The position numbers and the translations under genes are program-made. Below, piece after piece: positions 6,383-61,652 of a stretch of 64,000 nucleotides of DNA. This stretch comes from a virus. The notes under the pieces are model-generated. The model was not told where the DNA came from. It worked only from the letters and a program-made list of their open reading frames with translations, and did no database searches. Location: positions 228,892 to 292,891 of the IMG/VR virus record IMGVR_UViG_3300044972_002389. One strand, written 5' to 3'. How positions within the stretch are numbered: the first letter of the stretch is position 1; the number at the start of each line of letters is the position of its first letter.

Positions 6383-6987
6383 CGCAGTGCTGGACCAGTT
6401 AACCAAGCCACCAAAGTGCGGCGTAACCCACTTGTAACGGGTGTTACTCTATGCAGAACAAAGCTGGGAAAAACGGCTACAAGGCCTAGATCCTTGCTAA
6501 TGGTTTGTGGATCAGCGCCTAACTTAACTTGTAGATTGCCACCTTCATACTCACAGGGATCGCTCAATTGTAAAACTACACTGAGTTTTCGAGGACCGTG
6601 GTTTGTGGAAGTGATGCCACTGTCAATATGCCAGGTGTAGTGACCCTCATCATCCCCGTAGTATTCAGTGTATTGCAGGTGTTCACCAAATCCCCACAAA
6701 TCAAAGCGAAAATGCTGGCCATTTAAATTACGAACAATATTACCCAAGCGTTGATAAATCCAATCAGTGTCAGGACTGGCTTCAATCCAACTGGTTTTGC
6801 TTTTGCGTATTTGTTCATAATTTTGAGCGGGATCAAATCCACCAATTACCGCTTTTCCTGGCTGTCTAGCCTGCCCTAGTTGAATTATCTTTTTTATATC
6901 ATCTCCTGAAAATCCATCTTTCCAGGTTGCTACGTTTGCCTCACCAGCGCCAAAGCTGGGACTTGGTAAAAATTGATAAATTGACAC
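6379..6987 (-). CDS. 2-oxoglutarate/Fe(II) oxygenase, prolyl 4-hydroxylase-like
   Basis: 202 residues from a GTG at 6987 with AGGGAG at good spacing; a TTG at 7038 would give 219 residues. Family hallmarks: iron ligands in HID (His120, Asp122), a distal His179 in FPSFVLHRV, and the 2-oxoglutarate-binding Arg in [19 protein letters not shown] lies between them, as in the P4Hc family. These enzymes use O2 and 2-oxoglutarate to hydroxylate prolines or other residues. It is convergent with, and overlaps by 4 bp, a run of three Gly-Pro-Pro collagen-like genes, so those proteins are the obvious candidate substrate. Oxygenases of this family are common in T4-like cyanophages with unknown targets; the substrate here is inferred. 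Confidence 0.85.
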
Positions 6988-7049
6988 TCTGTTGCTCCCT
7001 TTGATTTGAACTATACAAGGGCCTTTGTTTCTCTGCAATAAATAGATTT

Positions 7050-7277
7050 ATGAGAGCAATGGATTTAGATAGTGCTGGCTATTACAGCCCAGACCAAGAT
7101 CATTATACTATGCAAAATCAGTATGACCCGCGTCGACCCAAGATTACAATCGCACATTTAAATCAAATGAAAAGAATGCGTAGTGCCAAGAAATTGGAAA
7201 ATCTTGTGCGCAGAGATCTTTTGGGCCTGTTGTATGGCGCTCCCTCTGCTGAAGGCGGCGGAATGCCAGGCATGTAG
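7050..7277 (+). CDS. Hypothetical small basic protein upstream of the capsid genes
   Basis: 75 residues with possible starts at 7050 or 7059. The core HLNQMKRMRSAKKLENLVRRDLLGLLYGAP is a basic amphipathic helix; the end is Gly-rich. A late-promoter-like AATAAATA lies at 7037-7044, so close to the ATG that the leader would be very short. The position just before the prohead core, protease and scaffold genes is that of small prohead genes such as 67 in T4, but I do not recognise true homology. Function unknown. Confidence 0.55.
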   Translation: MRAMDLDSAGYYSPDQDHYTMQNQYDPRRPKITIAHLNQMKRMRSAKKLENLVRRDLLGLLYGAPSAEGGGMPGM

Positions 7278-7299
7278 TCTAAAATTGCCTTATTTTCCA

Positions 7300-7307
7300 T
7301 ATAAATC
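7300..7307 (+). promoter_or_regulatory. Possible T4-type late promoter (7/8 match)
   Basis: TATAAATC, one mismatch to the T4 late box TATAAATA. It lies about 65 bases before the ATG of the acidic core gene; a weaker TCTAAATA follows near 7328. Confidence 0.45.
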
Positions 7308-7373
7308 CAAGTTATTCTTCAACTCCTTCTAAATAAACACAGAGTCTATCAACTTTACCAAAGGAGACAAACT

Positions 7374-8735
7374 ATGGCTAATAGCAAGCTGTTGAAGGTA
7401 ATGGATTACCTTATCAACGAGCAAGAAGACAAGGCTCGTGACCTGTTGCACCAAATCTTCATTGAGAAGGCACGTGCAATTCACGAGGAAATGCTAAGTG
7501 ACGACGAGCATGAAATGGACAGGGACGAGGGCAGAAATCTCGGAGATGACATTGAATTTCACAAAGAAGAAATTGAGAATGAAGAGCATTATGGCGACGG
7601 CACAATGGAAGATGTTGACCTCGATGACGCGGTTGAAGATCTCACAGTAAGTGCTGGCGATGATGAAGATGCTGACGATGTTGATGTTGACGTGGAAGAC
7701 GATGACATAGACATGGACGCTGAAGACGACATGGACGATGAAGACGACATGGACGATGAAGAAATGGATGCTGATGAAGCTGAAATGGATGCAGACATGG
7801 ACCACGACGAGGAAGCTGAAGGCGAGCGTCTAAAAGACATTGAGCAAGCAATTGAAGAGTTGACTGCTGAATTTGAAGCTATGAAGGCTGAACTACATGG
7901 TGAACATGGTGATGCAGAGGGAGATAAAATGCCCCTGCAGGAAATGGCAGATTCGGGCACTACGCCTGGTGGTAAACAGTACAAAATTAGCGGCGATTTT
8001 GAAACCGTGACTGTTAATGGAACTTCTTACCCAATCCGCAAACTGAGTGGTCAAGGGGACAACCCCGACTACGTAATAGATGACATCCATATTGGTCAAA
8101 CATATCAGGACATGCCACACCCTGACGCGGATGAGGAAGACTATGAGGAAGAATATGAAGTCTGGACAGAAGCACCAGGACAAGCAGATAACACCCTACA
8201 CGTTGGTACGTGGGATGAGTGCTGGAACTTTTTAATTGATCAACTAGGAAGTGAAGACCATTCGCGTTTGAAAAGACGCCTACAGCGCGATGCTAGCGGT
8301 GGTGGCATGAGAGAAGGCTGGATGGACAACACTGACGACCTTGATGAAGACTATGATGATCTTGATGAAGCCATTGCCCTCGATACAGTTCATGTTGATC
8401 TCAAGAAAGTTGGCGAAGTTGGCTCAGGAAAGTTTTCTCGTAGTGATGTAAGCAAGCATAGCCCAGTGCCCAAAGGCGTTCAAAGCCCTGTTCCAGGTGC
8501 CAAGCCAGTTGTGACAGGCAAGGGATCAAAGGCTGATGGATATCATCTTCAATCTGCCCCCACAAGTGCCAGTATGAACTTGTCCAACCGTCGCAAGAAG
8601 GCTAGTGAAGACATGACTCATGTCAGCAAGGAAGGCAGCACAAAGGCCATGTTGAACAAAGATCGTTCAGAAGGTTTTGGCGCCGCCAACGTTCGCAGCC
8701 CACTGGGCAGCACCGGCACAACACCAAAGAAGTAA
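7374..8735 (+). CDS. Highly acidic putative prohead core protein (gp67/gp68-like)
   Basis: 453 residues, AAGGAG before the ATG. Residues 1-45 (LLKVMDYLINEQEDKARDLLHQIFIEKARAI) resemble the N-terminal helix of gp68-type core proteins. Residues 80-150 are an extreme Asp/Glu/Met tract (DDEDDMDDEEMDADEAEMD). Residues 150-175 form a coiled coil. The C-terminal third is basic and Ser/Gly-rich with many SPVPG-type linkers. It sits directly before the prohead protease and scaffold, the T4 order for core genes 67 and 68. T4 core proteins are cut by gp21 during maturation; it is plausible that the acidic tract is processed similarly. It is much longer than T4 gp67/68 (80-141 residues). A perfect hairpin follows. 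Confidence 0.65.
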   Translation: MANSKLLKVMDYLINEQEDKARDLLHQIFIEKARAIHEEMLSDDEHEMDRDEGRNLGDDIEFHKEEIENEEHYGDGTMEDVDLDDAVEDLTVSAGDDEDADDVDVDVEDDDIDMDAEDDMDDEDDMDDEEMDADEAEMDADMDHDEEAEGERLKDIEQAIEELTAEFEAMKAELHGEHGDAEGDKMPLQEMADSGTTPGGKQYKISGDFETVTVNGTSYPIRKLSGQGDNPDYVIDDIHIGQTYQDMPHPDADEEDYEEEYEVWTEAPGQADNTLHVGTWDECWNFLIDQLGSEDHSRLKRRLQRDASGGGMREGWMDNTDDLDEDYDDLDEAIALDTVHVDLKKVGEVGSGKFSRSDVSKHSPVPKGVQSPVPGAKPVVTGKGSKADGYHLQSAPTSASMNLSNRRKKASEDMTHVSKEGSTKAMLNKDRSEGFGAANVRSPLGSTGTTPKK

Positions 8736-16806: not shown

Positions 16807-17598
16807 CTAACAAGGTAAGTAGGAAATGTATTTTTTTACACCCAATTGGCACATCAATTCTAATATTCTGTCAGCATTTGGGCTTTTTTGAATACTCAAT
16901 AAGTTTCTGATAACTCTCTCGTCATCTTCTTGGTCAGCTAACAAGCTAATGTGTTTCTTGATCCACTCAAGGTCTGTTTTCACCATAAGTGGTTGTGGAA
17001 ACATAGTCAAGGCTTTGAAGTATCGCATGATTTGGTTGGGATCGTCCTTGATGTTGGATTTAGTATCAGGCAACATTCGGATACGACTGTGCTTCAAATC
17101 GGCGTATCCGCCTTGATAATCCCAAATGTGGCCATGTAAATCCATACTCATGCTGTTGATTGTCAGGTCCCGCATTTCACTGTCTGTAGCCCAGTTTTTG
17201 GCTTTTTTGAGAAAAGGTCGAGCACCTTTCAACTGTATCCTGTAACCCAAACTGGTTATTTCCACTTTGTTTTTGTCCCCGTTCTGCCTAAAAACGGCTT
17301 TGATGGTGCCATGTTTGATGCCCTGTGTTTCTGCCTCAATTCCATATAGGTTCAAGAGAAACAACGTTTCACTAGGATCTGCGTCCACTACCAAATCAAT
17401 ATCCCGTGGTTTTTTATGTAGCAACATGTCTCTCACTGCACCACCTACAATCCGAGTGGACACATGATGATCATGAAGAATTTTCAAAATTTGCCGCGTA
17501 TTGGGATCAATAAATTGGTCCATTATTTGCATATCAACTTGTGCAACTGGCTTTGTGGGATACTGTTTCATAGGATTATTTAGAGGCTGAGACGCCAT
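16807..17598 (-). CDS. CCA-adding enzyme / tRNA nucleotidyltransferase-like
   Basis: 263 residues from an ATG at 17598 with CAGGG upstream; starts at 17661 or 17571 are also possible. Class II nucleotidyltransferase core: RIVGGAVRDMLLHKKPRDIDLVVDA (GG motif plus DxD metal ligands), then an RDLTINSMSMDLHGHIWDYQGG block and the DPNQIMRYFKAL block, as in bacterial Cca/PcnB. These enzymes add or repair the 3' CCA of tRNA using CTP and ATP. The protein is shorter than bacterial Cca (about 400) and stops soon after the neck region. It is the last gene of the gp14-lysozyme-gp15 late operon. Activity on tRNA versus poly(A) cannot be decided. Confidence 0.85.
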   Translation of the reverse strand: MASQPLNNPMKQYPTKPVAQVDMQIMDQFIDPNTRQILKILHDHHVSTRIVGGAVRDMLLHKKPRDIDLVVDADPSETLFLLNLYGIEAETQGIKHGTIKAVFRQNGDKNKVEITSLGYRIQLKGARPFLKKAKNWATDSEMRDLTINSMSMDLHGHIWDYQGGYADLKHSRIRMLPDTKSNIKDDPNQIMRYFKALTMFPQPLMVKTDLEWIKKHISLLADQEDDERVIRNLLSIQKSPNADRILELMCQLGVKKYISYLPC

Positions 17599-19463
17599 AA
17601 GCCCTGTGTATACGTGCTCTTGGGAAAAGCTTTCCATTCTTGATTCGTCCAAAGAAACCATTTTTGACTGTATTGATTCAACACCAATGTCTGCAAAGGG
17701 CTGCTGCTGTCAAAGGCCAAAACCCATTGTGAGCCGTTGTATTCAATTATATCGTTGGCAATAACAGGGTAAATTACTTGCACAAAATCTCCAATTTGTG
17801 CAACAGAGTCTCCTGACAAAACCACTTGGTATTGAAGTGCATTCAATTGTACAATTTGCACAACACTTGCAGTTTGTGTAATGCCTGACCCAAATAGGAT
17901 TTGCATGCTGCGGTTCAGGCTTAACTGGGCTTGATCAACAGGTTCTATTACCAGTTCGTTGGTGCTGACCCTACCAACTACCAGTGCCTGCACATTTGGT
18001 ATTGCCTGAACATTGCCCCACGCGCCGCTTTGAAATGCAATTTCATTTGTCAACAAATATCTTTGACCAAATCTTTCCTCAGTCAAGCCAGAGCCAGGGT
18101 AAGTGCGCTGTGGATCAATAACAGCAGTGATGGGAGGAAGTTGATCTCCGGGCCAACTGGAAAGTTTGCCTTTCCAAATCAAATAGTTTTGGTTGGTGGG
18201 ATGAAAATCAATATATCCCACAATGTCAGAGTCTCTGTTGTCAAGATCATCTGTTGACAACAGCCTTATTTGGCTAGCGTTTTCTTGGAAACTGCTTTGG
18301 GGTTTTACTGCGCCATATTTGTCCAAGAGCCTCCACCAAGCCAAGGTTCCGCCCTTGTATATGGTGGGCTGAAATCCCAAATCTTGGATTGGTGTGCCTT
18401 CCACGTTTTCCAAGACAATATCTCCACCAGTCATGTTCCAAAATTCAATTTGCTGATTCAAATTAAAAACTGCGTTCAAACTGGGTTCAACAGTTCGCAC
18501 TCGAATCAAGTTGATTAAATCATCAATACTTGTGTTGGGTATTGTTATAGCTTGCCCATTGAACTTGAATGTAGTACCAGGTGTCAATACAGGATTTTTT
18601 CTGCCCAACACACGGGTCGGCAATGTCTGAGGATCAATCGTACTACCAGAAGGACTTTGTAGGCTGATTTCCCAGGTGTTTTCACCTGCATTGGCCATGG
18701 CAATACAGGCATCCAGAGGAGTTGTTAACACTCTACTCAGCAAAGACTGTTCGGTCCACTCCATTGTGTTGGGATCATATTCACCTTCACGTATATTTGT
18801 TACAATCTCTTGAATTATCTTTTGTAGTTTTACTTTGGCTGGTGGATTTATGAAAATTGGCACTTTGTATTCAACAGTACAAACATCAATGGGGTTTTCT
18901 GTACCAATGGGAATACTTCGACTGCTCCAAGTGATGTTTGTGGGCTCAAGGGTTGTAATAGCTGTCCAGTCCAAGGGATTGTTCGATGTTTGAATATCAA
19001 TCATTCCATTATAGAGTACTTGGGTTTGCTCAATAAGCTCTTCTTTTTGGTTAAGGTTACTGGTCCAAAAGTCTACGTTGAAGGTCAGGTCAAAAGGTAC
19101 AGCCATATAACGTTCAACAGTGCTTCTGTTACCTTGTGTACCTAGGTAGCGACTATTTTCTCCGTCGTATTCACGTTCAATAACGTTTTGTGTTGAAACA
19201 AGGCTTGGAGCATGACGCCGGTTGGGTGCCAAACTCATGGCTGTCAAATAGACTGAGATGAAAGGGGCTGTTGGTAATTTGTTTTCACTGTTGGCATTTG
19301 TGATGGTTTCTGCCAAACGTGAAGGGTCACCATAGCGACAAGGCACTCGCCTCAGCTTCGGGGTGCCGTCGCTGTTGATACCCATGCTTACACTGAAGTT
19401 GCTGAATGCTCGTATGACTTGAAGTCTATACTGCCGTAGCTGTTGGTTGTACCAATATTCCAT
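17580..19463 (-). CDS. 15: Tail sheath stabiliser and completion protein gp15, extended
   Basis: 627 residues. The N-terminal about 250 residues match gp15: EYWYNQQLRQYRLQVIRAFSNFSVSMG, then LRRVPCRYGDPSRLAETI, APFISVYLTAM and the YMAVPFDLTFNVDFWTSN block. gp15 caps the contractile tail and joins it to the neck. T4 gp15 has 272 residues; here the extra about 350 C-terminal residues are beta-rich with a repeated VGRVSTNELVIEP-type pattern and could decorate the neck or carry whiskers-like functions. The stop of the lysozyme gene touches its ATG (coordinate 19463). Confidence 0.82.
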   Translation of the reverse strand: MEYWYNQQLRQYRLQVIRAFSNFSVSMGINSDGTPKLRRVPCRYGDPSRLAETITNANSENKLPTAPFISVYLTAMSLAPNRRHAPSLVSTQNVIEREYDGENSRYLGTQGNRSTVERYMAVPFDLTFNVDFWTSNLNQKEELIEQTQVLYNGMIDIQTSNNPLDWTAITTLEPTNITWSSRSIPIGTENPIDVCTVEYKVPIFINPPAKVKLQKIIQEIVTNIREGEYDPNTMEWTEQSLLSRVLTTPLDACIAMANAGENTWEISLQSPSGSTIDPQTLPTRVLGRKNPVLTPGTTFKFNGQAITIPNTSIDDLINLIRVRTVEPSLNAVFNLNQQIEFWNMTGGDIVLENVEGTPIQDLGFQPTIYKGGTLAWWRLLDKYGAVKPQSSFQENASQIRLLSTDDLDNRDSDIVGYIDFHPTNQNYLIWKGKLSSWPGDQLPPITAVIDPQRTYPGSGLTEERFGQRYLLTNEIAFQSGAWGNVQAIPNVQALVVGRVSTNELVIEPVDQAQLSLNRSMQILFGSGITQTASVVQIVQLNALQYQVVLSGDSVAQIGDFVQVIYPVIANDIIEYNGSQWVLAFDSSSPLQTLVLNQYSQKWFLWTNQEWKAFPKSTYTQGLWRLSL

Positions 19464-45685: not shown

Positions 45686-46780
45686 ATGAAACCTTTAGAT
45701 TTATCCCGATTTAGAAAAGATATTGCCAAGAGCATTCCAGGACTATCAGTTGGCTTTCGCGATCCCAAGGTATGGATCTCAACAGGCAACTATGCACTCA
45801 ATTATGCTATCTCTGGTAGATTCCGTGACGGTGGCATCCCGCTAGGCAAAGTAACAATGCTGGCTGGACAAAGTGGCAGTGGCAAGAGCTTTCTGGCAGC
45901 AGGAAACTTAACCTCTAATGCACAGAAAAAAGATGTGTTTGTGGTGTTGATCGACAGTGAGAATGCACTAGATGAAAAATGGCTAAAGGCGCTAGATGTA
46001 GATACATCTGAGGACAAGCTTTTGAAGGCAAACTTGGCAATGATTGATGATGTTGCCAAGTTGATCTCAGATTTCATGAAGGACTACAAAGCTCGTTACA
46101 ACAGCGTGAGTGAGGAAGAACGCCCTCGCGTGCTCTTTGTGATTGACAGTTTAGGCATGCTCCTAACTCCAACTGATGTCAATCAATTTGAGGCTGGTGA
46201 GCTCAAGGGTGATATGGGGCGCAAGCCGCGTGCACTTGCTGCGCTTGTGCGAAATTGTGTTAACATGTTTGGTGAATATGATATCGGCATGATTTGCACA
46301 AACCACAGTTATGCAAGCCAAGACATGTTCAATCCAGATGATGTCATTAGTGGTGGGCAAGGCCCCATCTACGCCAGCAGCATTGTGTTGGCTATGCGCA
46401 AACTCAAGCTCAAGGAAGATGAGATGGGCAACAAGACAACAGACGTCAAAGGTATCCGTGCTCAATGTCGTGTAATGAAGACGCGATATAACAAACCCTT
46501 TGAGACTGTTGAGGTTAAAATCCCATACGACCGAGGCATGGACCCCTACAGTGGCTTGTATGACCTGTTTGTTCAGAAAGGGTTGTTAGTCAAAGAAGGA
46601 AACAAGTGGTGTTACACTCGTTTGGATGGCACACAGATCAAGCAGTTTGAAAAAGCTTGGGATCGCAATGAAGATGGATGTCTTGATCAAATAATGAATG
46701 AGTTCCATCAGAAGCTAAGCAAAATTGCCCCTGTGTTAGAAGATATTGAAGTTCAAGAGCCTGAAGAAGATCTATCATAA
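45686..46780 (+). CDS. uvsX: RecA-like recombinase UvsX
   Basis: 364 residues, AAAAAGGAACAA before the ATG. Walker A AGQSGSGKSFLA (Lys67), Walker B VLFVIDSLGMLLTP, and ICTNHSYASQDMFNPDDVISGGQGPIYASS, the UvsX/RecA L2-like segment. It forms filaments on ssDNA for recombination-dependent replication and repair. It works with gp32, UvsY (48204) and UvsW (58152), all present here. A terminator follows at 46803. Confidence 0.95.
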   Translation: MKPLDLSRFRKDIAKSIPGLSVGFRDPKVWISTGNYALNYAISGRFRDGGIPLGKVTMLAGQSGSGKSFLAAGNLTSNAQKKDVFVVLIDSENALDEKWLKALDVDTSEDKLLKANLAMIDDVAKLISDFMKDYKARYNSVSEEERPRVLFVIDSLGMLLTPTDVNQFEAGELKGDMGRKPRALAALVRNCVNMFGEYDIGMICTNHSYASQDMFNPDDVISGGQGPIYASSIVLAMRKLKLKEDEMGNKTTDVKGIRAQCRVMKTRYNKPFETVEVKIPYDRGMDPYSGLYDLFVQKGLLVKEGNKWCYTRLDGTQIKQFEKAWDRNEDGCLDQIMNEFHQKLSKIAPVLEDIEVQEPEEDLS

Positions 46781-46802: not shown

Positions 46803-46827
46803 AGAGCGGGACAAAATGTCCCGCTCT
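46803..46827 (+). terminator. Terminator after uvsX
   Basis: An 11-bp stem (AGAGCGGGACA / TGTCCCGCTCT) with an AAA loop; the following CATTGTTTTG is T-rich. Confidence 0.82.
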
Positions 46828-46829
46828 CA

Positions 46830-46857
46830 TTGTTTTGAGCTGATTGCCATATATAAT
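46830..46857 (+). promoter_or_regulatory. Sigma70-like promoter of the bL33-RlmN-like pair
   Basis: TTGTTT, 16 bases, then a perfect TATAAT. It starts directly downstream of the uvsX terminator and 23 bases before the bL33 ATG. Confidence 0.6.
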
Positions 46858-46879
46858 CACGCATAGCAGGAGACACAGG

Positions 46880-47071
46880 ATGGCAAAAGCAGCAACCGTA
46901 ATTGTAATGTTGGTAAATCAAGACCATGATACACCAACCAAATACATGACGCATGTTACTACAAAAGGTGCAAAGTCTAGTGAAAAGTTGCGTCTGAAGA
47001 AGTATGACCCAGTGGTACAAAAACATTGTAACTTTGGTCAAAAAAAACTACCTTCGCCCAAATCCCGTTAA
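46880..47071 (+). CDS. rpmG: Ribosomal protein bL33
   Basis: 63 residues from the ATG at 46880 with CAGGAG upstream. It matches bacterial bL33: MAKAATVIVMLVNQ at the start and the signature SSEKLRLKKYDPVVQKHCNF (E. coli has PEKLELKKFDPVVRQHVIY). It is slightly longer than the usual 55 residues through an insertion after residue 14 and a basic tail. No CxxC zinc-ribbon pair, so it is of the zinc-independent type. bL33 sits near the E site of the 50S subunit. A phage copy could exchange into host ribosomes. It shares its promoter with the RlmN-like gene 17 bases downstream. Confidence 0.86.
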   Translation: MAKAATVIVMLVNQDHDTPTKYMTHVTTKGAKSSEKLRLKKYDPVVQKHCNFGQKKLPSPKSR

Positions 47072-47088
47072 CCAGAAAGTTTCAACGT

Positions 47089-47934
47089 ATGTTACAACAG
47101 ATCAACTCGCAACTGGATGCGAGTGTAAATTTTGTTGAGCAACAGCTGACAGGATTTATTGAGTCGCGTTATGTAAGACGTCAAGCTGACTATTTCATCG
47201 CGTATCTCAGTTCACAAACTGGCTGTAACCGTGGATGCCAAATGTGTCATCTCACTGCAACCAAACAAACACAATTTTCGAATCTGGACCAAAGTGATTT
47301 TGTCAGTCAGTTTGAAACTGTATTGTCTCATTATGAAAAAGACACTCCTGCGCAAACAGTGCACTTGAATTTCATGGCCCGGGGAGAGCCGCTAGCCAAT
47401 ACCACGATAACCAAAACTGGAACAGAACTTTTTTGGCGACTGGGTAACATGGCACGAGACCGAGGACTGCGAGTAAAATTCAACGTGTCTACCATTATGC
47501 CAGTAACGCTCAAAAAAAGCCTGTGTGAAGTGTTCCCTCTTATCCCGGCGAATGTGTATTACTCCATATATTCAATAAATTCTTCATTTAGAAACAAATG
47601 GTTACCAGCTGCGATGCCAGTAGAGCGTGCGCTAGCTAATCTCAAGGAATATCAACAAGTTTCAAAAAAGATCATCAAGTTTCACGGTGCATTTATCAAG
47701 GGCGAAAATGACAGTGAACAAGATGTTGAAGAGCTGATGAACACCATTGCTGAATACAGTTTTCACAGTGAGTTCAACATTGTGAGATACAATCCCTATA
47801 GCAGTCAACAGGGTGAAGAAAGTCTACGGGTGGATGACATAGCTGCACAAATCCAGCAATATATGCCCTGTAAGATTATTCCGAAAGTTGGTCAAGACGT
47901 ATATGCAAGTTGCGGCCAATTTGTACCCAAGTAA
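47089..47934 (+). CDS. RlmN/Cfr-like radical SAM protein, short form
   Basis: 281 residues. Radical SAM cluster CNRGCQMC (Cys46, Cys50, Cys53) in LSSQTGCNRGCQMCHLTATKQ, as in RlmN (LSSQVGC...C..C). Then NFMARGEPLAN (RlmN MGMGEPL), YYSIYSINSSFRNKWLPA, IVRYNPY, and a C-terminal ASCGQF whose Cys275 matches the methyl-carrying Cys of RlmN/Cfr (ACGQL). The family methylates 23S rRNA A2503 (and some tRNAs) at C2 or C8. It lacks the N-terminal accessory domain of bacterial RlmN (about 370 residues). The pairing with bL33 strongly suggests the ribosome as target. Confidence 0.85.
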   Translation: MLQQINSQLDASVNFVEQQLTGFIESRYVRRQADYFIAYLSSQTGCNRGCQMCHLTATKQTQFSNLDQSDFVSQFETVLSHYEKDTPAQTVHLNFMARGEPLANTTITKTGTELFWRLGNMARDRGLRVKFNVSTIMPVTLKKSLCEVFPLIPANVYYSIYSINSSFRNKWLPAAMPVERALANLKEYQQVSKKIIKFHGAFIKGENDSEQDVEELMNTIAEYSFHSEFNIVRYNPYSSQQGEESLRVDDIAAQIQQYMPCKIIPKVGQDVYASCGQFVPK

Positions 47935-47944: not shown

Positions 47945-47973
47945 ACCCCAGATTTTTTGTGGAGATCAAACTA

Positions 47974-48192
47974 ATGGAAATTGATGCAAAACTAATTGCA
48001 GAGCTTTGGGAAACAGTCAAGGACTTGATTCCCTCTGGCAAGCGAGACGATGTGGCACTGGAATTCATCAGTGTTTTTGAAGAAAATGATGTAGAGATTC
48101 ATGATCTTGACTCACTGCGTGGTGCAGATGACAGCCTTGATTCTGCCCTTGATGAACTCTATGGAGATGTTGACGTAGACGACGACTGCTAG
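47974..48192 (+). CDS. Hypothetical acidic small protein
   Basis: 72 residues from the ATG at 47974 with TGGAG upstream; a GTG at 47959 overlaps that ribosome site. Very acidic C-terminus (SALDELYGDVDVDDDC). Contains IAELWETVKDLIPSGKRDDVALEFISVFEENDVEIHDLD, a helical block seen in small T4-like proteins of unknown function. Sits before uvsY. Confidence 0.6.
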   Translation: MEIDAKLIAELWETVKDLIPSGKRDDVALEFISVFEENDVEIHDLDSLRGADDSLDSALDELYGDVDVDDDC

Positions 48193-48203
48193 TATCAATT
48201 GTC

Positions 48204-48656
48204 ATGTGGTTTAACAGAGTAAAAAACGACCTATCGCAAATTCCTGATATGGTCGACTACTACAACAATGAGCTTGAGGTTGCTCAAAAAGAATGCAAGG
48301 TTTTTGGCAGCCTTGAAAAAAACAGTCAAGAGCTGCCAGGTCAGGTAAGTTGGCGTTTCAGTCAACTGCAAGAGATTGAGGCTGTGTTGAAACATCTCAA
48401 CAACCAAGTGGACAAAATGAGAAGCGACTTTTATCGTCGCTATCTCGAACGCTACAACAGAGAATTGAGTGACCGCGCCATTGAAAAATACATTGATGGC
48501 GAGGCTGATGTTCAAACAATGATGAGTCTAGTGAATGAGGTGGCATTGATTCGCAACAAGTATCTTGGTGTAATCAAGTCAATGGAGATCAAGGGTTTTC
48601 AACTTAACAATATCATACGCCTTAGGTCTGTGGGTATGAATGATATTGCGCTCTAA
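48204..48656 (+). CDS. uvsY: Recombination mediator UvsY-like
   Basis: 150 residues, helical and charged. N-terminal WFNRVKNDLSQIPDMVDYYNNELEVAQKECKVFGSLEKNSQELPG, then FYRRYLERYNRELSDRAIEKYIDGEADVQTMMSLVNEVALIRNKYLGVIKSMEIKGFQLNNIIRLR. The IxxYIDGExDV...FQLNNII pattern fits the C-terminal half of UvsY in marine T4-like phages. UvsY loads UvsX on gp32-coated DNA. The genomic closeness to uvsX and 32 supports the call. Confidence 0.7.
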   Translation: MWFNRVKNDLSQIPDMVDYYNNELEVAQKECKVFGSLEKNSQELPGQVSWRFSQLQEIEAVLKHLNNQVDKMRSDFYRRYLERYNRELSDRAIEKYIDGEADVQTMMSLVNEVALIRNKYLGVIKSMEIKGFQLNNIIRLRSVGMNDIAL

Positions 48657-54153: not shown

Positions 54154-54336
54154 ATGGGTAACATTCTCGTCGTAACTCTCATGCTCACAGGAGATCCTTC
54201 TTTTGAGCCCAGGCGCCTGGACACTGTGAGCAAAGGCTGCGAGTTCGAACGGGCCACTGTGGCTGGCATGAACCGTGCCGAAGCTGAGGCTGGAACCAAC
54301 CGCCGCTATATGCCCTACTGCGTGGGGAAGATGTAA
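54154..54336 (+). CDS. Hypothetical small early protein
   Basis: 60 residues from the ATG at 54154 after GAAAGGAAATCAAG. MGNILVVTLMLTGDPSFEPRRLDTVSKGCEFERATVAGMNRAEAE; one hydrophobic start. Ends 1 base before the kinase ATG. No family recognised. Confidence 0.5.
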   Translation: MGNILVVTLMLTGDPSFEPRRLDTVSKGCEFERATVAGMNRAEAEAGTNRRYMPYCVGKM

Positions 54337-54337
54337 G

Positions 54338-54805
54338 ATGCCTACTCTATGGATGTTGGTGGGTGTGCCTGGCAGCGGGAAGTCCACATGGCTTGATCAG
54401 CAGGGCTTTGGTCGAGACACTGCTATCATCAGCACCGATCAGCACATTGATGCTGAGGCAGCTCGTCAAGGCCGAACATACAGCGAGGTGTTCAAGGGCT
54501 TTGTGAAGCGTGCTACCTCCATCATGAACGCTGATTTGGCCATTGCCATCAAGGATGGAGACGACATTTGTTGGGATCAAACCAATGTCACCAGCAAAAG
54601 CCGTGCAGCTAAGCTGGCCTCTGTGCCCAACACCTACCGGAAGGTGGCAGTGTTCTTTCCCACTCCTGAGCCCAAGGAGCTGGAACGCAGGCTCGCCAGC
54701 CGGCCAGGCAAGCATATTCCCTGGAACATCCTCCAGGGCATGGCCAGTCACTTGGAGATACCCACTGAGGACGAAGGCTTTGATGAGGTTGTGGTTGTGT
54801 CATAG
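54338..54805 (+). CDS. P-loop kinase, polynucleotide-kinase/zeta-toxin-like
   Basis: 155 residues from the ATG at 54338. Walker A LVGVPGSGKSTW at residues 7-18, DTAIISTDQHID (lid/phosphoacceptor region) and DDICWDQTNVTSKSR, which fit the T4 PNK N-terminal or AAA_33 kinase family. It ends before any phosphatase domain, so it is kinase only. In T4 PNK this fold repairs RNA and DNA ends, for example tRNA cut by host anticodon nuclease. Last gene of the operon. Confidence 0.8.
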   Translation: MPTLWMLVGVPGSGKSTWLDQQGFGRDTAIISTDQHIDAEAARQGRTYSEVFKGFVKRATSIMNADLAIAIKDGDDICWDQTNVTSKSRAAKLASVPNTYRKVAVFFPTPEPKELERRLASRPGKHIPWNILQGMASHLEIPTEDEGFDEVVVVS

Positions 54806-60156: not shown

Positions 60157-60202
60157 TTGACGTATTTTCTCTCGTGTGTATAATGGTTGAACACACGAGA
60201 GA
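60157..60202 (+). promoter_or_regulatory. Promoter inside an 11-bp palindrome (operator-like)
   Basis: TTGACG (60157-60162), 16 bases, then a perfect TATAAT (60179-60184). The -10 lies in the 13-base spacer of a perfect inverted repeat, TCTCTCGTGTG (60168-60178) and CACACGAGAGA (60192-60202). The right arm runs into the ribosome site GAGAGG. The left arm is upstream of the start point, so it is a DNA operator, not an RNA hairpin. Confidence 0.75.
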
Positions 60203-60209
60203 GGTTGCT

Positions 60210-61652
60210 GTGAAGATTTTCAACGTTCGGGCTGGCTTTGCTACCAACAGCAGTAGTAGTCACAGCATTGTGATGATTCCAGCCGGAATGCGGGTTGGCA
60301 CAGATGAGCACAACCGCTTTGAATATGGTTGGGAACAGTTCACCCTGGCTGATCAAGAAAGCAAGTCGGCGTATTTTGCCACCCAGCTATACCATGCTCT
60401 GGATAGGGAAAATGTGTCAGGGGAAACCGCTGTTCAGTTGATGAACAGCTGGCTTGGCACAAACTACACAGCAGACACTTTTTGCAGCTATGGTGTGGAC
60501 CATCAAAGCATTTGGGGAATTTTCTCAAGCTCAGATCCTGTTGATGGTGGATTTGTCAAGAGCCTCTACCAGTATGTGATGCGCGATGATGTTGTTATCC
60601 TCGGCGGGAACGACAACAGCGATGGGCAAACACCCCCAGACGGCAGCTTTGAGAACGACATCACTGCGGCTATCCAACACTCGGGCGAAAAGCGCATTCG
60701 CCAGGATGGGGATTATTGGACCTTGTTCAGCCCCAGCAGTGGGCACAAGGTGCGGCTCAGCATGCAAGATGACGCTCTTCCTTACGTCAAGAGCACTTAT
60801 CCTGAGCTCGTCGACGTTAAGCTGACCGACCACTGCCTTTACAAATGTAATTGGTGTTATCAGGGCAGCACCCCAGAAGGCAAGCATGCACAACTGAGTG
60901 AAGTTCTCAATTTGGTTGATACGTTTAGTCGGATGGGAGTGTTTGAAATTGCTTATGGTGGCGGGGAGACAACTGACCACCCCAATTTCGCAGAGATCAT
61001 TCAGTACACCGCAAGTAAGAACATTGTACCAAACTTCACTACTTTTGGTGTTAAGTGGAGTTTGGATCGGGAGAAGGCATTGGCTGTAGTGAACCATGCT
61101 GGTGCTATTGGTGTGAGTATTCACAATGCCAAAGACTTGAACAAAATCTCCAAGATTAGGAGTAACCTAGACAATCACATGAAGAGTCAGGGCGAGAAGT
61201 GGTGGAAACTGCCCTCCATTATGGCTCAGCATGTGGTAGGCAGCGTGGACCTTGCTGAAACAGCAGAACTCCTGGAACGTTGCTGGCAGGAAGGTGTGAA
61301 CGTTCTTCTACTCGGCTACAAAAATGTGGGATTTGGTGAAAACTTCGCCCCCCACGATCTCACTGGGTTGGACTTGGTTCTGCGACTTCGGCAGGAAAAA
61401 GGCCAGGCCCACTACAACGCCAGATTCAGTATGCTGGGAGTGGATACGGCTTTTGTGCAACAGTTTGACCCAATCCTGCAGGAACTGGAGATTCCCAGCG
61501 TGTTGAAAACTGCCGAAGAGGGTAAATTTTCAATGTATGTGGATGCAGTCACTATGCGGCAGGGGCCCAGCAGCTATATGCCAGATCAGATGGTTGATGT
61601 GGACACAAGTCAACTGCGTGACAGCATCTCCCAAGCCTATATTACCTGGTAG
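60210..61652 (+). CDS. Radical SAM protein with FATNSSSSHS N-terminal domain
   Basis: 480 residues from a GTG at 60210 after GAGAGG; an upstream ATG at 60174 would place the start inside the promoter. N-terminal FNVRAGFATNSSSSHSIV is a motif seen at the start of various phage and bacterial proteins. The radical SAM cluster is CLYKCNWC (Cys209, Cys213, Cys216) in LTDHCLYKCNWCYQGS, then YGGGETTDHPNFAEII. No extra Cys cluster (no SPASM domain), so not a typical peptide-maturation enzyme. Substrate unknown. Own palindromic promoter and terminator: a stand-alone regulated unit. Confidence 0.82.
   Translation: MKIFNVRAGFATNSSSSHSIVMIPAGMRVGTDEHNRFEYGWEQFTLADQESKSAYFATQLYHALDRENVSGETAVQLMNSWLGTNYTADTFCSYGVDHQSIWGIFSSSDPVDGGFVKSLYQYVMRDDVVILGGNDNSDGQTPPDGSFENDITAAIQHSGEKRIRQDGDYWTLFSPSSGHKVRLSMQDDALPYVKSTYPELVDVKLTDHCLYKCNWCYQGSTPEGKHAQLSEVLNLVDTFSRMGVFEIAYGGGETTDHPNFAEIIQYTASKNIVPNFTTFGVKWSLDREKALAVVNHAGAIGVSIHNAKDLNKISKIRSNLDNHMKSQGEKWWKLPSIMAQHVVGSVDLAETAELLERCWQEGVNVLLLGYKNVGFGENFAPHDLTGLDLVLRLRQEKGQAHYNARFSMLGVDTAFVQQFDPILQELEIPSVLKTAEEGKFSMYVDAVTMRQGPSSYMPDQMVDVDTSQLRDSISQAYITW

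Follow-up and report, generated by a model that had tools for sequence, protein, structure and literature searches.

A Tyr-type RlmN-like radical SAM enzyme encoded next to ribosomal protein bL33 in a T4-like jumbo phage

Radical SAM RNA methyltransferases and phage-encoded bL33

RlmN and Cfr have been called the sole two radical SAM RNA methyltransferases in a 2024 paper (PMC10838301). In these enzymes, the methyl group is carried by one cysteine (C355 in RlmN, C338 in Cfr), and a second cysteine (C118 and C105, respectively) takes a proton and thereby releases the RNA. RlmN with C118A/S and Cfr with C105A/S form stable covalent protein-RNA adducts (PMC9692996, PMC13001441, PMC10838301). Helices H91 and H92 of 23S rRNA are bound by the N-terminal domain of Cfr (PMC13001441). 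Ribosomal protein bL33, which counts among the loosely bound, exchangeable ribosomal proteins (PMC6375957), has already been reported from more than 10 aquatic viral contigs (Mizuno et al. 2019, PMC6375957), and a bL33 gene is present in the jumbo cyanophage PhiMa05 (PMC13157829). The main texts of PMC6375957 and PMC13157829 make no mention of RlmN.

The window analyzed here is a stretch of 64,000 nucleotides, bases 228,892-292,891 of a virus record of 328,603 bases. The phage is regarded as a T4-like jumbo phage because it encodes a Gp23 capsid protein, a T4-type terminase, UvsX, UvsY, a single-strand DNA-binding protein and a UvsW-like helicase. The closest terminases among deposited phages, about 49% identical, are those of Sinorhizobium phage Phosso and the PA5oct-like Pseudomonas phages. 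Between the uvsX recombinase gene (45686-46780, plus strand; phrog_97, E 8.8e-70) and a gene for a uvsY-like recombination mediator (48204-48656, plus strand; phrog_231, E 2.6e-16) lies a slot in which the order is bL33, an RlmN-like gene and a gene for a small acidic protein. The last of these (47959-48192, plus strand; 77 aa, GTG start as listed) comes next among the conserved genes of the slot and is kept in the viral relatives L045, L048, L050, L138 and L141. Elsewhere in the window are found a second radical SAM protein unrelated to the RlmN-like enzyme (60174-61652; phrog_16999, E 3.1e-31), a CCA-adding-type head domain (16807-17661, minus strand; PF01743, 85 bits) and a kinase-like AAA_33 protein (54275-54805, plus strand); no tRNA genes were found in the record of this phage.

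The bL33 gene (46880-47071, plus strand) encodes 63 aa of the zinc-free (C-minus) type, and its start codon is preceded by GGAG. The identification made by a sequence-only reading of this DNA was borne out: the protein passes the cut-offs of PF00471 (Pfam; 30 bits against 25) and TIGR01023 (NCBIfam; 29 bits against 23.95), remains under the stricter one of PRK00595 (28.3 against 50 bits), and matches solved bL33 chains. The KKYDPVV.KH core is present and the zinc CxxC pairs are absent. The likeness to the virus-encoded bL33 of Mizuno et al. 2019 and PhiMa05 consists in bL33 being carried by a virus; the insert and C-terminus are the own of the window phage's clade, whose relatives have them in common. 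No relatives of the window bL33 were found in deposited phage records by tblastn. The gene adds a further phage-encoded ribosomal protein to a phenomenon that is already known.

The RlmN-like enzyme and the Tyr-type family

The enzyme gene (47089-47934, plus strand) begins 17 bases past the bL33 stop codon on the same strand, and its assigned start is backed by the relatives L007-L009, where a stop codon immediately precedes it. Motifs, profiles and predicted structure identify the product, of 281 aa, as a Tyr-type RlmN-like radical SAM protein. The sequence-only reading had credited it with both RlmN hallmarks, and these are indeed present: C46, C50 and C53 form the CX3CX2C cluster motif, and the C-terminal ASCGQF holds C275, which aligns with the methyl-carrier C355 of RlmN. 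The resolving cysteine (RlmN C118, Cfr C105), however, is replaced by Tyr39. The MGMGE motif of RlmN reads MARGE, and R98 and H199 are further altered residues, in place of M176 and the usual Glu, respectively.

The label RlmN/Cfr-like was upheld to the extent that the best NCBIfam model is RlmN (TIGR00048, E 1.7e-17), but the protein falls under every RlmN and Cfr cut-off. It scores 63.4 bits against TIGR00048 (cut-off 290), with the match starting at profile position 79 and the N-terminal RNA-binding domain absent, and lower still against the Cfr models (53.7 and 48.5 bits; cut-offs 530 and 550). A canonical RlmN or Cfr can be ruled out because of the low score, the missing N-terminal domain and the missing resolving cysteine. 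In comparison with RlmN (TIGR00048; E. coli 3rfa, 5hr6), the radical SAM fold, CX3CX2C, the GEPL.N region and the methyl-carrier cysteine in a C-terminal CG[QMT] motif are shared; with Cfr, the A2503 C8 methylase, the fold class and the methyl-carrier cysteine are the same. The structure of the enzyme was predicted with a pLDDT of 96.4, and the best PDB matches of the model are RlmN, followed by Cfr. The highest TM-score, 0.82, was obtained with 5hr6, which is C118A RlmN crosslinked to tRNA.

The protein matches phrog_27142 over its full length (305 bits, E 1.2e-90, profile positions 8-299 of 300). This group, annotated as Fe-S-cluster redox domain-containing, includes 201phi2-1 gp434 and proteins of Psa21 and CcrColossus, is 40-45% identical to the window enzyme and shares the active-site changes. 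With tblastn, members from 201phi2-1, Psa21, Phabio, CcrColossus, CcrPW and Brevundimonas jumbo phages showed an identity of about 40-43%; bL33, which accompanies the enzyme in the window, is absent from the tested records of 201phi2-1, Psa21, Phabio and CcrPW.

A profile search traced this family to 72 viral contigs and to the genomes of 16 cellular organisms; a few of the cellular matches may be phage-derived. The residue comparison covers 92 loci with 83 distinct sequences, some contigs being near-copies. Tyr occupies the resolving position in each of the 91 rows covering it. Arg98 in place of M176 and His199, where canonical RlmN mostly has Glu, occur in 92 of 92 rows, Ala97 (one Ser) replaces Gly, and the cluster motif and methyl-carrier cysteine are kept. 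In contrast, 17 canonical RlmN-type proteins of the same cellular genomes have Cys, Met (one Ile), Gly and mostly Glu at these positions. A canonical RlmN over the cut-off is also present in 12 of the 16 cellular genomes that carry the Tyr-type family. In a quick tree, the branch separating the Tyr-type family from canonical RlmN received an SH-aLRT of 99. Two more distant phage proteins fall outside the family, those of Klebsiella phage 05F01 and Tunturi_5, with Val and Cys at the resolving position, respectively. No papers on the family were found in a literature search mostly without subscription journals. The Tyr-type family is a separate, widespread and apparently unstudied RlmN-like family, and this is the new point of the analysis.

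Adjacency and expression of bL33 and the enzyme gene

The pairing of bL33 with the enzyme, which the sequence-only reading did not know from elsewhere, recurs in 12 further viral contigs, several of which are near-identical to the window. The gene order is that of the window in 8 of the 12, and bL33 follows the enzyme in the other 4 (L049, L050, L051, L138). That the genes are adjacent in both orders, with comparable divergence, could reflect a shared function. Other members of the clade depart from this arrangement. In L048, the enzyme is present and a different ORF occupies the possible place of bL33. In L141, bL33 is kept, and a remnant of 36 residues of an RlmN-like N-terminus (7802-8038), located between uvsX and bL33, indicates a deletion of the enzyme gene. 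L046 shows a broken frame, and in G011, a record of 452,799 bases, both genes are present about 320 kb apart. ORFs of about 79 codons that look alike follow the enzyme gene in L048 (8850-9088) and L054 (8849-9088), neither of which has an adjacent bL33.

Among 50 enzyme-bearing virus records, some of them fragments, any bL33 was found in 8, all from the clade of the window phage, and no Tyr-type enzyme was detected within up to 8 kb of bL33 in other bL33-bearing viral contigs. A bL33-RlmN pair conserved across phages was thus ruled out, the pair being confined to one phage clade. The link is real within this clade, but it is not obligate.

Several relatives carry inserted sequences around uvsX. 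Intein-like sequences are seen in L050 (5015-7996), where two uvsX pieces flank an endonuclease-like ORF, and in L141 (6355-7869), where a single longer ORF has an internal insert. In L045, uvsX and bL33 are set apart by some 900 inserted bases (about 6810-7690) that look endonuclease-like by eye.

Transcription of the pair had been attributed to one shared promoter with a perfect -10. A TATAAT was found at 46852-46857, within the block TATATAATCACGCATA (46850-46865, plus strand), and is a possible -10 without a consensus -35. No plus-strand -35/-10 pair was detected by the scan before bL33, and there was no excess over shuffled sequences; a consensus sigma-70 promoter was not found at this place. 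The TATAAT site is also unlike the motifs enriched upstream of the phage ORFs (late-type TTAAATA; TTGACA/TGCTATA). Over the whole record, the 120 bases before ORFs show an enrichment of about 9- to 13-fold for TTAAATA and ATAAATA, as in T4 late promoters, and the acidic gene is directly preceded by the late-promoter-like TTTAAATAA, of a motif class enriched upstream of ORFs. After uvsX, a terminator-like hairpin (46803-46827, plus strand; 11 pairs in the scan, 7 of them G-C) is followed by a T-rich stretch. A transcription start before bL33 is plausible, because the core of this hairpin and the TATATAATCACGCATA block with its TATAAT are both kept in L045, in which synonymous sites are near saturation. 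The 17-base spacing, together with the terminator after uvsX, makes a single shared transcript of bL33 and the enzyme gene plausible as well.

The slot might simply be a cargo site whose genes move with mobile elements, the pair itself having little or no selected function. The differing slot contents among relatives, the intein-like uvsX sequences, the insertion between uvsX and bL33, the enzyme remnant in L141 and the broken frame in L046 all agree with this. Selection on the genes makes it distinctly unlikely: between the window and L045, dN/dS is about 0.06 for bL33 (a rough figure, the gene being short) and about 0.13 for the enzyme, showing purifying selection on both genes; five phage copies of bL33 agree at 26 of its 63 positions; and the enzyme belongs to a broad, strongly conserved family.

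A further proposal was a joint remodeling of the host 50S subunit by bL33 and an A2503 methylase of canonical type, with altered translation or stalling. Both families act on the 50S, and such a device would suit the short spacing and the fact that the pair recurs in both orders. The enzyme, however, is without two features of A2503 methylases, the N-terminal domain and the resolving cysteine; most of its carriers are without bL33, and the genes separate even within the clade. Most cellular carriers already possess a canonical RlmN, and the surroundings of the enzyme's relatives indicate tRNA at least as much as the 50S. The two gene identities hold at the broad family level, both being translation-related; a joint 50S-altering pair lacks support and is very unlikely.

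Target and possible mode of action

The genomic surroundings of the Tyr-type genes bear on the RNA that may be modified. The Tyr-type genes of Psa21, D6 and related Pseudomonas phages come after tRNA genes and before RtcB. Caulobacter phages and several Brevundimonas phages encode a CCA-adding enzyme about 2-3 kb downstream, and in L060 and L064 the Tyr-type gene is located inside tRNA arrays. Comparison of the local number of tRNA genes with random positions gave weak P values of 0.03-0.06, from three records of which two are related. Many relatives are without a nearby tRNA gene, and neither bS21 nor RtcB was found in the record of the window phage. The N-terminal domain by which Cfr is known to grip 23S rRNA is absent in the Tyr-type family. 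Because some relatives are found inside tRNA arrays or close to RtcB or a CCA-adding enzyme, tRNA is no less likely a target than 23S rRNA.

The loss of the resolving cysteine recalls the mutants in which protein and RNA remain joined. The enzyme might be a natural trap that remains covalently attached to an adenine of host tRNA or rRNA, thereby blocking host translation or marking selected RNAs. The invariant Tyr at the resolving position and the kept methyl-carrier cysteine are compatible with a trap, as are the stable adducts of C118A/S RlmN and C105A/S Cfr. Tyr differs from Ala and Ser, however, and could serve as a base, the linked changes to Arg98 and H199 suggest reworked chemistry, and stable chromosomal presence in diverse bacteria is ill-suited to a poison; a trap is accordingly held to be highly doubtful. 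A substrate other than RNA, such as a small molecule or a protein, would suit the absence of the RNA-binding N-terminal domain and the altered active-site residues, but is very improbable in view of the retained methyl-carrier cysteine and C-terminal segment, the best structure matches, which are all RlmN and then Cfr, and the tRNA-related neighbors in several lineages.

The explanation preferred as a whole, though tentatively, is that bL33 and the enzyme are neighbors in a cargo slot, bL33 entering ribosomes and the Tyr-type enzyme acting on RNA with an altered release step. It builds directly on the observed sequence, conservation, distribution and predicted fold; from these we infer the RNA substrate, the preference for tRNA, the altered release and the entry of bL33 into ribosomes. 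The variable slot between uvsX and uvsY would hold two translation-related cargo genes that became neighbors through cargo assembly. Phage bL33 would most likely replace the loosely bound host bL33 near the ribosomal E site. Its conserved residues and fold suggest that the enzyme should bind a [4Fe-4S] cluster and SAM, place a methyl group onto C275, and then transfer it by radical addition to an adenine in a folded RNA. A tRNA, for instance at position 37, would be a likelier substrate than 23S rRNA at A2503. With Tyr39 at the position of the proton-removing cysteine and Arg98 at that of M176, the release step would have to differ from that of RlmN and Cfr, and Tyr39 or another residue may serve as the base. 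A shared benefit to phage translation is possible under the cargo-slot explanation, and a joint 50S mechanism would be unnecessary.

RlmN and Cfr need two catalytic cysteines. The Tyr-type family retains one of them, with Tyr at the place of the second and linked Arg and His changes, and is a natural test of the two-cysteine mechanism and of phage action on RNA adenines. A more far-reaching proposal, unlikely on present evidence, is that jumbo phages use an RlmN-like class without the resolving cysteine that either forms a lasting covalent adduct with a host tRNA or 23S adenine or performs new Tyr/Arg/His chemistry. If this is true, such chemistry would yield a different product, and the family would be a means by which jumbo phages target the translation machinery.
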